Shown here piece after piece: positions 817 to 45,232 of a stretch of DNA of 64,000 nt (position 1 is its first letter; each line of letters begins with the position of its first letter). Made by a program: the position numbers and the translations under genes. This DNA comes from Clostridia bacterium (lineage in GTDB: Bacteria > Bacillota > Peptococcia > DRI-13 > UBA5745). The stretch covers positions 1 through 64,000 of the forward strand of contig JAHDMJ010000014.1 in assembly GCA_018436095.1 (NCBI GenBank). Direction: 5' to 3'. Below the pieces are notes generated by a model. That model saw only the letters and a list, made by a program, of their open reading frames with translations. It did no database searches and was not told where the DNA came from.

Positions 817-1036
817 GTTCAATTTTTCCGGTTGTGTGTGGTTTCGGTCACCCGCCTGTGCAATTTTTGCGTTTGTACGTGATTTGCATGCTGGCTTAGA
901 GGTAATTTAGCCAAATTCAGGCCGCTTCTGTGCAAATTTTGCGGTTGTGCGGTAATAACCCTTTTGCATTTCACATACAAACGCAATTTTTGCTCAACCG
1001 GCCCCGCCGATTTTCATACAAACGCAATTTTTGCAC
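817..1036. repeat. Repeat array A: 19-bp motif, two opposing orientations
   Basis: Forward copies lie at 817-835 (degenerate), 858-876 and 930-948; inverted copies lie at 977-995 and 1018-1036. The inverted copies read G(A/T)GCAAAAATTGCGTTTGT on the minus strand. Spacing 817 to 858 and 977 to 1018 is 41 bp in both cases. The motif is related to the arrays at 7547, 34840 and 43653. The surrounding 643-1195 interval has no convincing gene; short frames through the repeats lack ribosome sites. Confidence 0.75.
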
Positions 1037-1195
1037 AGACGGGGGTCAGAGCCGGCAGCGCCGCAGCACCGTCACTACCCGGCGGGCGCCCCATGGTTCA
1101 CCGCTCTTTTCTGGCCACTGAAAAAGTTGGTCAAGCCTGCCCGAATGTATAAAACTTAAACTTTTAAGTAGTTAGTCTGCCGGTAAGACGCCCTA

Positions 1196-3034: not shown

Positions 3035-3072
3035 GCCCTCATTTTCAATTTTATCTTCCATTATCAACTATT

Positions 3073-3170
3073 ATTGTTAAAACAACCCCGCTATTGTTAA
3101 AACAACCCCGCTATTGTTAAAACAACCCCGCTATTGTTAAAACAACCCCGCTATTGTTAAAACAACCCCC
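3073..3170. repeat. Five tandem copies of a 20-bp unit
   Basis: The unit ATTGTTAAAACAACCCCGCT is repeated at 3073, 3093, 3113, 3133 and 3153, the last copy truncated after 17 bp. Copies are identical, implying recent expansion. Each contains the inverted pair TTGTT/AACAA. The array lies between the converging DUF3842 and hpf genes and runs into the terminator hairpin that follows. Confidence 0.95.
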
Positions 3171-3985: not shown

Positions 3986-4009
3986 AATTAAGGACAATTG
4001 AACAGCGTA

Positions 4010-4120
4010 AGTCTTCAGGGCAGGGTGAAATTCCCGATCGGCGGTACAGTCCGCGAGCGCTTCCGGCGCAGAATTGGTGCAACTCCAATACCGACAGTTA
4101 TAGTCTGGATGAAAGAAGAT
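4010..4120 (+). ncRNA. FMN riboswitch (RFN element)
   Basis: The segment has the conserved RFN blocks: GTCTTCAGGGCAGGGTGAAA at the 5' side, CGGCGGT, the ACAGTCCGCGA segment, and TAGTCTGGATGAAAGAAGA at the 3' side. FMN binding normally switches off the downstream gene. It precedes a terminator hairpin and the riboflavin transporter gene, which fits exactly. Confidence 0.97.
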
Positions 4121-4175
4121 GTTGCCGACCGTAGGTTTGAGCGTTTTTTGTAACGCCTTCAAGCTGTCAGTTTAG

Positions 4176-7546: not shown

Positions 7547-7768
7547 GAGCAAAAATGCAGGTTTGTTAATCTTTGTCTTCGGAAATGTGCAAAAATGCAG
7601 GTTTGTAGACACCCCTTAGAGCTATGGAGGCCCATAAAACGGGTAGAAAGATATGTCATGGCTGTATTTAGAGTCCTGTCAGAAATCAGTCCACTACCTA
7701 ACTGGCAAAATTACTTAAAATTGCTTCTGGCAGGGTCTGCAAACTAAGACAAACCTGCATTTTTGCAC
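7547..7768. repeat. Repeat array B: 20-bp motif, two opposing orientations
   Basis: Forward copies GNGCAAAAATGCAGGTTTGT lie at 7547-7566 and 7587-7606 (40-bp spacing) and an inverted copy at 7749-7768. The three copies share the local variant AATGCAGG, unlike arrays A and D. The array lies upstream of codY in a gene-free interval (7373-7928). Confidence 0.8.
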
Positions 7769-7928: not shown

Positions 7929-8195
7929 CCGTACACCCCGGCTTCGAACCAAACCTTCCGGACGTTACCCAGGCAGCCGGCTCAAATCAGGCTGCCCTGC
8001 GGCACACAAAAGAGTTTGCTTACTGCTGCTTCCTTCCGGACCTGACAGGGTTCACAAATTTTTGTTGCGCAGGACCCGATCGTCAACGCTGCTTACCTGG
8101 GTCAGACTCCACAAGGCTGGCCCTGGGCCGGGGAACTCCACCCCGCTAAGGCGGTTTGCGGGTACAGGGCACCGCCAGCTCCCCATGTAGTACGG
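7929..8195 (-). ncRNA. ffs: Signal recognition particle RNA, large type with Alu domain
   Basis: The minus strand contains the conserved SRP apical loop GTCAGGTCCGGAAGGAAGCA. The 5' and 3' ends pair (CCGTAC...GTACGG), giving about 267 nt, the size of the Bacillus/Clostridium scRNA with an Alu domain. A run of seven U follows the 3' end as terminator. The RNA scaffolds Ffh for cotranslational membrane targeting. Confidence 0.95.
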
Positions 8196-15296: not shown

Positions 15297-15324
15297 TGGT
15301 GCAGGAACAACTAAATAGAAAAAA

Positions 15325-15485
15325 CAATCGGTTGCCTTACAGGCATTAATAGGGAATGCGGTTAGAATCCGCAACAGCACACTTTACTGTAAAAGCTACG
15401 AAACACAGATTTGGCCACTGGAATCATTCCGGGAAGGCTTGTGGATTAGGTCTGAAGCTTTGAGTCAGGATATCTGCCGGTTGTT
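15325..15485 (+). ncRNA. Cobalamin riboswitch
   Basis: The leader contains the conserved blocks AATCGGTTGCC, AATAGGGAATGCGGT with AATCCGCAACAG, and the B12 box AGTCAGGATATCTGCC (15463-15478). It precedes an intrinsic terminator and a B12-type ABC importer, so it should shut the operon off when cobalamin is plentiful. Confidence 0.95.
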
Positions 15486-15535
15486 TCTCAAAAATCCTTT
15501 GGTGGTGAAGGGATTTCAGGCTGGCTTTTGCGTTC

Positions 15536-34839: not shown

Positions 34840-34859
34840 ACAAACTTGCAATTTTGCAC
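34840..34859 (-). repeat. Single copy of the dispersed 20-bp repeat (locus C)
   Basis: On the minus strand it reads GTGCAAAATTGCAAGTTTGT, identical to the commonest copy of array D at 43.7 kb. It lies in the gene-free interval 34780-35037 before the MocR-like gene, which otherwise shows nothing I recognise. Confidence 0.75.
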
Positions 34860-43487: not shown

Positions 43488-43501
43488 AAAAAGGCTGGCC
43501 A
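43434..43501 (-). terminator. Long terminator hairpin downstream of the TolC operon
   Basis: GCCAGCCTTTTTTATC and GATAAAAAAGGCTGGC arms (43441-43456, 43485-43500) are followed on the minus strand by seven T residues. The loop contains two of the enhancer dyads. Confidence 0.7.
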
Positions 43502-43652
43502 AGATTATGTTCTGGGGAACGGGGCTTGCTCCTAAGCGATGAGCCGATGTTGGTAAACTGAAGGAATCAGGGATCACTGCCACGAGGGTGGGGGCTGGGA
43601 GCTGAGTGCTTAAAATCGAAGGTGTGGTTTGTGCTCTGGCGGAAGCCCTTTG

Positions 43653-43883
43653 GTGCAAAATTGCAAGTTTGTACTCTGACGGCACCCCCAAATGTGCAAA
43701 ATTGCAAGTTTGTTTCCAAGGTCGTGGCATTTTGAGCAAAATTGCAGGTTTGTTATCTTTAAATCACTACTTAGGAAGCCTATTTAGCCTGAGAACCCTG
43801 TTTTCAGGCTAAATCACCTATTACAAACTTGCAATTTTGCTCAGTTAGCCGGTGCGAATGGCGACAAACTTGCAATTTTGCTC
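43653..43883. repeat. Repeat array D: five 20-bp copies in two opposing sets
   Basis: Forward copies at 43653, 43694 and 43734 (GTGCAAAATTGCAAGTTTGT twice, GAGCAAAATTGCAGGTTTGT once) are spaced 41 and 40 bp; inverted copies at 43823 and 43864 are spaced 41 bp. Spacers of about 21 bp differ from one another. A hairpin TTTAGCCTGA/TCAGGCTAAA (43783-43813) lies between the two sets. The 43502-43987 interval has no convincing gene. Confidence 0.9.
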
Positions 43884-43987
43884 AGTCACCCCCACGACGG
43901 TCAGTGCCCAACTTGCCGGACTTTTTCAGTGCTCTCAATTGTGCGTTCATTTTGGGGGCTTCCCATGGGCATTCCCCATCTTCCTTT

Positions 43988-45232
43988 CTATACCAATATG
44001 CCTTGCTGCAGCAAAATCACCTTTTTCGCACCTAAATAACCATTATATTGAGCCTGAACATAATCCTGCTGGGCCGTAAGCAGGTTTTTTTCTGCCGTCC
44101 TCATTTCATTTAATGTGATGGCCCCCATATTCATTTTCATTTGGGCCGTCATGTAATCCCGCTGGGCCTGATCCCGCTTTTCTTTGGCCTTCTCCAAAGC
44201 CTCATCCAGCCCCTTAAATTCCTTCACGGCGCTTTCCACCGTTCTCGTCAAGGTTTGCTTCGTCTCTTTCAAAGCCAGATCCTTGGCGGCGCCGCTGGCT
44301 GCCAGCTTTTCCGCCTGGCTGGTTTGGCCCCGGTTCTCATAGCTCTCGATTTTTTTGCTGAGCTCATCCACTTCCCGTTGGGCCTGTTTTAAAGAGAGGG
44401 AGTTTTTCAAAGCCTCCGCCAGCACGTCCTCCTCGTCAAACTCTTTAGCATACTGGCCAAAATCCGGGGGGTTAGCCAGCTTGAACTCCACCTCATCCGC
44501 CAAGTTCAAATATTCCCTCATGGTATTTTTGTTGTCTTTCAAAGTGGTCTTTAAATTTTCCAAAGCATCTTTGGCACTATCCCACTGGGTCTTGGCGCTT
44601 TGCAGTTGGCTTTGGCTATAGGCGCCAAAAGCGCTTTTAACCTTGGCCAGCTCATATTCGGCATTCAGCCTTTGCACTTCCTTTTCCTGAATCTCTATCT
44701 GCACCTCCCCCTGAAGAATATCCAGATACAGCTTTTGGGCCTGATAAGCTACTTTAGGCTTTAGCTTTTCCAGCGCCTCCTCCGCATCCAGATAAGAGTT
44801 GTAGGCGCTTTCGTAACTGTCCTGCAAGCTGTATAAAGAACTTTCGGAAATGCCGGAACTGGGGTTATTGTAATATTGATAGACTTGGGACTGATAATTA
44901 GAAAGCTGGGAATCTTTTGATTGCTCAGCCTGATCCAAAGAGGCCTTCTGGCGGGTAATATCGCTGCCGTTATTTTGAGCGATAGCCCCTACCTCGGCAA
45001 AAGTGTAGGTTCTGATCTGACCGCCGCTTTCTTGTCCGCCGCCGCTATCGGCCAATAAGGCGCCGCCTAAGGGCCGGCTGGCAGCATCCGGCGCAAGCCG
45101 GTTAAGCTTATCCGGCTCTAAAGGCAGGGTGGTCAGCAGCAAACTCAACGCCAGAAATATACCGGCCTGCTGTACCCCTTTACTGCTTTTATTGCTTCTA
45201 TTATCCTTATTGCCTCTATCGCTTTTCTCCAT
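43988..45232 (-). CDS. TolC-like outer membrane efflux family protein
   Basis: The 414-residue protein has an N-terminal hydrophobic segment (GIFLALSLLLTTLPL), then long alpha-helical coiled-coil stretches typical of TolC (AEYELAKVKSAFGAYSQSQLQSAKTQW, and QMKMNMGAITLNEMRTAEKNLLTAQQDYVQAQ near the C-terminus). In diderms TolC forms the exit duct; similar proteins occur in some monoderm Firmicutes with unclear location. AAAGGAGG precedes the ATG. It is the last gene of the second export operon, 23 bp after the permease. Confidence 0.85.
   Translation of the reverse strand: MEKSDRGNKDNRSNKSSKGVQQAGIFLALSLLLTTLPLEPDKLNRLAPDAASRPLGGALLADSGGGQESGGQIRTYTFAEVGAIAQNNGSDITRQKASLDQAEQSKDSQLSNYQSQVYQYYNNPSSGISESSLYSLQDSYESAYNSYLDAEEALEKLKPKVAYQAQKLYLDILQGEVQIEIQEKEVQRLNAEYELAKVKSAFGAYSQSQLQSAKTQWDSAKDALENLKTTLKDNKNTMREYLNLADEVEFKLANPPDFGQYAKEFDEEDVLAEALKNSLSLKQAQREVDELSKKIESYENRGQTSQAEKLAASGAAKDLALKETKQTLTRTVESAVKEFKGLDEALEKAKEKRDQAQRDYMTAQMKMNMGAITLNEMRTAEKNLLTAQQDYVQAQYNGYLGAKKVILLQQGILV

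Follow-up and report, generated by a model that had tools for sequence, protein, structure and literature searches.

The window analysed here is a 64,000-bp stretch of DNA (contig C29, positions 1-64000) from the source genome (G000; 3.71 Mb in 38 contigs). It contains three arrays of a 20-bp repeat unit (A, B and D) and a single unit at locus C. By direct inspection, all copies listed in an earlier note for these four loci were present. In array A the positions were right, but its unit is a 19-bp variant and the copies at 817 and 930 are degenerate. The features, in window coordinates, are as follows:

817-835, plus strand: array A, degenerate unit
858-876, plus strand: array A, unit, 19-bp variant GTGCAATTTTTGCGTTTGT
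930-948, plus strand: array A, degenerate unit within the core
977-995, minus strand: array A, inverted unit
1018-1036, minus strand: array A, inverted unit, 41 bp farther outward
1113-1127, plus strand: IS1182-type terminal-repeat-like sequence GGCCACTGAAAAAGT, outside array A
7547-7566, plus strand: array B, unit 1 (GAGCAAAAATGCAGGTTTGT)
7587-7606, plus strand: array B, unit 2, 40 bp after unit 1
7607-7748, unstranded: array B, core of family 2, facing distance 162 bp, shorter than in the 172-bp copies through a deletion of 10 bp
7662-7673, minus strand: array B, internal motif (CTCTAAATACAG; consensus CACTAAATAYAG)
7749-7768, minus strand: array B, inverted unit
34840-34859, minus strand: locus C, single unit; in the sister species this intergenic region holds a simple two-ended element
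43499-43989, unstranded: 490-bp interval containing array D; its sister-species counterpart is 65 bp
43653-43672, plus strand: array D, unit 1 (GTGCAAAATTGCAAGTTTGT)
43694-43713, plus strand: array D, unit 2, 41 bp after unit 1
43734-43753, plus strand: array D, unit 3 (GAGCAAAATTGCAGGTTTGT), 40 bp after unit 2
43754-43822, unstranded: array D, core with a hairpin inside; similar to cores of the family 1 type, with a facing distance of 89 bp
43823-43842, minus strand: array D, inverted unit 1
43864-43883, minus strand: array D, inverted unit 2, 41 bp farther outward
43922-43936, minus strand: IS1182-type terminal-repeat-like sequence GAGAGCACTGAAAAA, a short way outside array D, for which neither a left end that matches nor a duplication was found

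The neighbours of the arrays in the window are ordinary genes, including those for serine dehydratase, an outer-membrane efflux protein, CodY and ECF transporters. Allowing up to two mismatches, nine 16-mers were recovered in the window and none in the reversed window or in 20 shuffles.

Genome-wide, the pattern GNGCAAAAN4-7TTTGT matched G000 335 times (156+179) and the reversed pattern only once (0+1). The genome holds 125 unit pairs about 40-41 bp apart, a pair pattern found in none of the 149 relatives searched. For the layout we used 89 array loci with 399 copies, a sample drawn by the pattern. The fixed period claimed earlier was borne out, as 168 of about 205 same-strand neighbours stand at 40 bp (72 steps) or 41 bp (96 steps). 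The opposing sets were likewise recovered: facing pairs in this sample are overwhelmingly of the > < type, and the commonest unit orders are >><<, >>><<< and >>><<. The genes beside the arrays are many and unrelated, and the arrays are nearly all intergenic. On one 378-kb contig four of six arrays lie entirely outside predicted ORFs and none is found past 150 kb, one stretch of 225 kb being array-free. The identical direct repeats and unique spacers of CRISPR are not what we see; the spacers are of two recurrent types and the units are inverted. Searches of plasmid and viral sequences with an array or a unit as query gave no match, and a match in the genome collection (L029) turned out to be a tandem repeat without relation to the unit.

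The cores between the facing sets group into sequence families. Families 2 and 3 lie inside a larger, composite repeat whose length is about 570-670 bp and whose boundaries are inverted TGTATGGTTTAATTTTGCGGGAA; its copies in G000 are at L009:754-1343, L143:931-1547 and L128:837-1409. In the genome of the sister species (G004), solo copies of this composite repeat also lie near elements.

The spacers had been described as unrelated sequences of about 21 bp, which does not hold, since 73 of the 177 scored spacers end in GCTAACT and two spacer types recur. Exact 41-bp steps account for 70 of these 73, and the remaining spacers belong mainly to 40-bp steps, most of them with a T-run or AAAT ending. 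The suggestion of local homogenisation was right for same-side neighbours, which have an identical unit middle in 46 % of cases vs 24 % in shuffled data (0/5000), but not across facing sides, where the innermost units have identical middles in 18 % vs 17 % of shuffled pairs. Moreover, the two sides of one array often differ in spacer type. As same-side units are alike and facing units are not, units appear to multiply along one side, and the facing sides do not show the match that an RNA stem would need.

The new feature of these arrays is the helical phasing of the facing sites, a regularity stronger than the earlier note saw. The innermost facing distances fall into narrow classes (89; 97-100; 108-111; 118-120; 129-130; 138-141; 162; 171-172 bp) and are quantised in steps of about 10.4 bp. 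When periods between 6 and 25 bp were scanned freely, the best value for G000 was 10.40 bp (R 0.86, n=82), and the same scan had its maximum at about 10.75 bp in the sister species (R 0.90, n=61). None of 2000 jittered distance sets reached the observed phasing. These all-copy statistics overstate independence because of shared descent; a safer, event-level test, in which the cores were clustered and one value was kept per family and length class because copies share descent, gave R 0.81 at 10.4 bp (0/100000 reach this value), with clustered families counted as independent events, which is only approximately true. Within core families, length changed by about one turn in eight cases and by about five turns in one (a 51-bp deletion), with a single exception of 24 bp; array B, shortened from 172 to 162 bp by its 10-bp deletion, is an example.

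The same ladder extends to the internal CACTAAATAYAG motif, located 45, 66 or 87 bp from one site and 25, 36, 46, 56 or 67 bp from the other. Most core families have this motif; family 1, to whose type array D belongs, has none. A-tracts within the cores repeat every ~10.15 bp, at least five times more strongly than in the flanks, a signal to which families 0 and 1 and some small families contribute and families 2 to 4 do not. The 40/41-bp step itself corresponds to 3.9 helical turns, not exactly 4. Among the three ideas offered earlier (a phased protein-binding array, a structured RNA and a recombination substrate), the first is the best supported.

Regarding the distribution of the arrays, we compared G000 with G004, a sister species of the same genus that is about 83 % identical and syntenic with most of the window; the comparison rests on one genome per species. 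Arrays A, B and D are absent from G004 at conserved gene order, with interval lengths (G000/G004) of 560/97 bp for A, 452/79 bp for B and 490/65 bp for D, and the counterpart of locus C is a simple element. Exact empty sites could not be established between the two genomes, as the intergenic DNA is too diverged for the breakpoints to be placed. The simple elements of G004 number about 95 (188 ends). They usually have a single site at each end, and the 20 measured were 112-156 bp long. At C44:387933 and C39:74508, elements of G004 appear to be absent from G000, and one simple element (L097/L160) is apparently common to both genomes. Candidate target duplications of the simple elements at A-tracts, 3-5-bp A/T runs, were suggestive and were set aside as confounded by the surrounding repeats. 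At L189:1568-1800 (G004:C1) the start of a LysR-type gene abuts a truncated element end, beside an ISLre2 copy. G004 also has its own species-specific array version, in which a unit variant (TCAAAATTGCAGGTTTCCCACCC) occurs five times in tandem at exact 41-bp steps (L166:776-955, G004:C33). This tandem array and the same-side homogenisation favour growth in place, by unit duplication from simple elements, over movement by the IS1182 route as the possible origin of the multi-unit arrays A, B and D.

A subset of elements carries the terminal repeat GAGG(G/C)CACTGAAAAA outside the sites. The terminal repeat GAGG(G/C)CACTGAAAAAGT was found in L146, L076, L233, L239, L248 and others, and also in the IS1182 elements L260-L264. 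Elements with these ends are flanked by 9-bp duplications, of which five are exact (CTTAGGCGG, CCTGTCTGG, CTACAAACC, GACTTTTCG and CGATGAACC) and others match at 8/9 positions. The distance from tip to inner site is mostly 17-19, 38-40, 49 or 81 bp, values that are near whole turns apart. The GAGG(G/C)CACTGAAAAA repeat also bounds full-length IS1182-family elements of 1693-2305 bp in unrelated phage contigs, which have 8-9-bp duplications and an IS1182 transposase (NF033551, E=2.9e-110). The proven relatives of the arrays thus have what is expected of IS1182-derived MITEs, namely matching ends and a duplication of the same length, and the MITEs here that combine IS1182-type ends with phased sites are 191-326 bp long. 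The view that no described family is like these arrays was therefore too strong, as their proven mobile relatives have IS1182-family ends. The phage-borne IS1182 copy that we checked (L255) has no 20-bp sites and no internal motif. The sites are thus distinct from the terminal repeat of IS1182 and were apparently added in this genus. Around arrays A, B and D themselves no terminal-repeat pair and no 9-bp duplication was found, and one tip-like sequence is located beside A and one beside D. Mini-elements with IS1182 ends were also seen in unrelated phage contigs (L251:2259-2396, 138 bp; L253:4331-4499, 169 bp; L256:173-290, 118 bp), and their lengths of 118, 138 and 169 bp are about two and about three helical turns apart.

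The array unit is a preferred insertion target. In the sampled G000 sequence, a unit end (ACAAACC/ or GGTTTGTnn/, the slash marking the junction) lies directly beside 27 of the 66 tips, compared with 1.3 % of random positions. The share among tips is inflated by the sampling of loci for arrays, but tip-only loci give the same junctions. The preferred insertion point within the unit is ACAAACC/TGCAATTTTG. At L017 a 234-bp element lies between CTACAAACC and its duplicate, and with the insert removed the flanking units stand 41 bp apart. The idea of a recombination substrate is right in part, in that the units are part of MITE-like DNA and act as hot spots for insertion.

A second, different site, GCACAAAAATCGAAGTTGTG, has the same layout. 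It occurs in the order >><< with 61/62-bp steps in 35/36 cases and facing distances of 66-67, 75-77, 127 and 137-139 bp. In G000, clusters of the >><< type with a 77-bp centre were found at L233:3062-3281 and in 36 other clusters, and the sites fill 319-bp elements with 9-bp duplications. As two site families have one layout, it is the design that recurs rather than one sequence. The GCACAAAAATCGAAGTTGTG site and the 20-bp site have a loose skeleton in common, and a remote common origin is possible on this resemblance.

We found no intact autonomous element and no binding protein in G000 or G004, no Y1/RAYT transposase candidate (PF01797) in G000, and no Tn7- or Mu-type transposase. ISLre2, whose gene lies close to a solo end in G004, was rejected as the mover because its ends (CTCGGTGTAAAATAAATG) are not a match. 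An IS3-type rve gene (L182), the single strong rve match, had no unit and no matching end. G000 contains one frameshifted IS1182-like remnant without matching tips. No active transposase gene with the same ends was found in the G000 assembly, an absence that is not final, as contigs break at repeats; since several of them end at the repeats of the arrays, a transposase copy may be missing.

The arrays are best read, from their sequence, as a large, genus-restricted family of short intergenic MITE-like mobile elements. We consider it fairly probable that they are IS1182-type MITEs and their derivatives, whose phased sites bind a protein and loop the short intervening DNA. Each element consists of two inward-facing sets of the 20-bp site around a non-coding core, and the sites, together with the internal motif in most core families, lie on one helix face. 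A protein, perhaps a transposase or a DNA-architectural partner, would bind the facing sites and loop the 90-170 bp between them. This length is near or under the persistence length of DNA, and in such a loop only whole-turn changes of length should be tolerated and preserve the complex. Short facing sites held in phase are the signature of a protein-joined DNA loop. The likely mover of the IS1182-ended subset is an IS1182-type transposase, now decayed or absent from the assembly, and the multi-unit arrays A, B and D may have moved by the same route. The same elements insert by preference into the array unit, by which arrays become landing pads.

Several other explanations can account for part of these observations. 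The phased units might be host architectural or regulatory sites, bound by a protein of the genus with a nucleoid-associated or regulatory role and kept for chromosome or gene control, with mobile elements only spreading or targeting them. The placement of units on one helix face, the 10.15-bp A-tract phasing in the cores of families 0 and 1, the GCAA..TTGC dyad in the units and the nearly always intergenic position beside many unrelated genes would all suit such sites. However, the same gene junctions have different arrays in the sister species, 225 kb of a 378-kb contig are array-free, the arrays stand in a mixed gene context and no more than two sites are present in the simple versions, and we regard this explanation as unlikely. 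Plain decay, in which the arrays are remnants of the ends of IS1182 or other insertion sequences and the spacing is inherited and not selected, appears quite improbable to us. The IS1182-type tips near A and D, the IS1182-like remnant in the genome and the clear common descent inside core families point towards it, but the phase is kept through independent indels in several core families, and two site families with different steps follow one ladder. The possibility that the arrays are decayed copies of a known insertion element, named beforehand as one that would speak against a distinct repeat family, applies in part to the IS1182-ended relatives and leaves the phasing unexplained.

The idea of a structured RNA, a transcript with a long stem made of the inverted sets, is hardly credible, even though a folding energy of -103.6 kcal/mol (z=-9.2) was obtained for array D. 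Good folding is common to any inverted repeat, the innermost facing arms are alike only at chance level, the two sides often have different spacer types and no Rfam match was found at the arrays. The 10.4-bp helical phasing is a property of double-stranded DNA, and the lack of co-variation between the innermost arms places the constraint on DNA and not on RNA. Spread by a single-strand (Y1/RAYT) transposase, as in REP/BIME-like repeats, is also very improbable. It would explain the high copy number, the intergenic position, the small dyad in the unit and the mosaic arrays, and insertion into units is known for REPs (PMC1525189); on the other hand, the Y1_Tnp gene was not found in the genome, the relatives have double-strand terminal repeats and 9-bp duplications, and B-form phasing would be unexpected for a single-strand hairpin substrate.

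Beyond the looped IS1182-type MITEs that we prefer, we suggest, tentatively, that the phased multi-site cassette may be a nucleoprotein module in its own right. It would serve MITEs whose ends differ, and would have been built on two or more occasions from unlike sites (with 40/41-bp and 61/62-bp steps). Such a module would both loop the element and mark its copies as landing pads, and new insertions would pile into old ones between genes.

Among known systems, IS1182 insertion sequences and MITEs are alike in their GAGG(G/C)CACTGAAAAAGT ends and 8-9-bp duplications, common to the phage-borne L260, L261 and L262 and the elements here; they differ in that the checked phage-borne copy lacks phased sites and the internal motif, and arrays A, B and D lack a demonstrable tip pair. 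Tn7-, Mu- and Tn5053-type ends carry several transposase recognition sites of about 20 bp in inverted sets near both ends. The several ~20-bp sites in inverted sets are similar here, whereas our elements are below 350 bp and have 9-bp duplications, and the strong rve match is IS3-like. The IESs of Paramecium have lengths that peak at intervals of ~10.2 bp, which has been read as DNA looping within the excision complex (PMC3464196), and those of Blepharisma form a parallel length ladder (PMC9942856). Like them, the arrays belong to short elements with a length ladder at the DNA helical repeat. IESs are, however, eukaryotic, developmentally excised, TA-bounded and piggyBac-derived, whereas the elements here are bacterial and intergenic, with 9-bp duplications and internal site arrays, so the resemblance would be one of working and not of membership. 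REP/BIME/REPIN repeats resemble the arrays in being short units that occur between genes by the hundred, in mosaic inverted arrays into which other elements insert (PMC1525189, PMC3116915). Unlike them, the units here are not strong hairpins and no Y1/RAYT gene was found, and the relatives here have double-strand transposon hallmarks and a helical ladder.

If the looping reading is true, the genus would represent a natural helical-twist experiment, in which more than 140 element copies in two species have kept nearly only whole-turn spacings, and the logic of Paramecium IESs would extend to bacterial mini-transposons. The looping step of a small transposition complex could then be tested by a sequence census and simple spacing assays, and a mobile element would be able to steer its own copies to safe intergenic places.

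Other features were also noticed in the window. At 3046-3158 there are tandem repeats of about 20 bp (TTGTTAAAACAACCCCGCTA), with a simple element nearby in the sister species. Rfam models identified an FMN riboswitch at 4007-4124, a large bacterial SRP RNA on the minus strand at 7929-8195 and a cobalamin riboswitch at 15312-15495.
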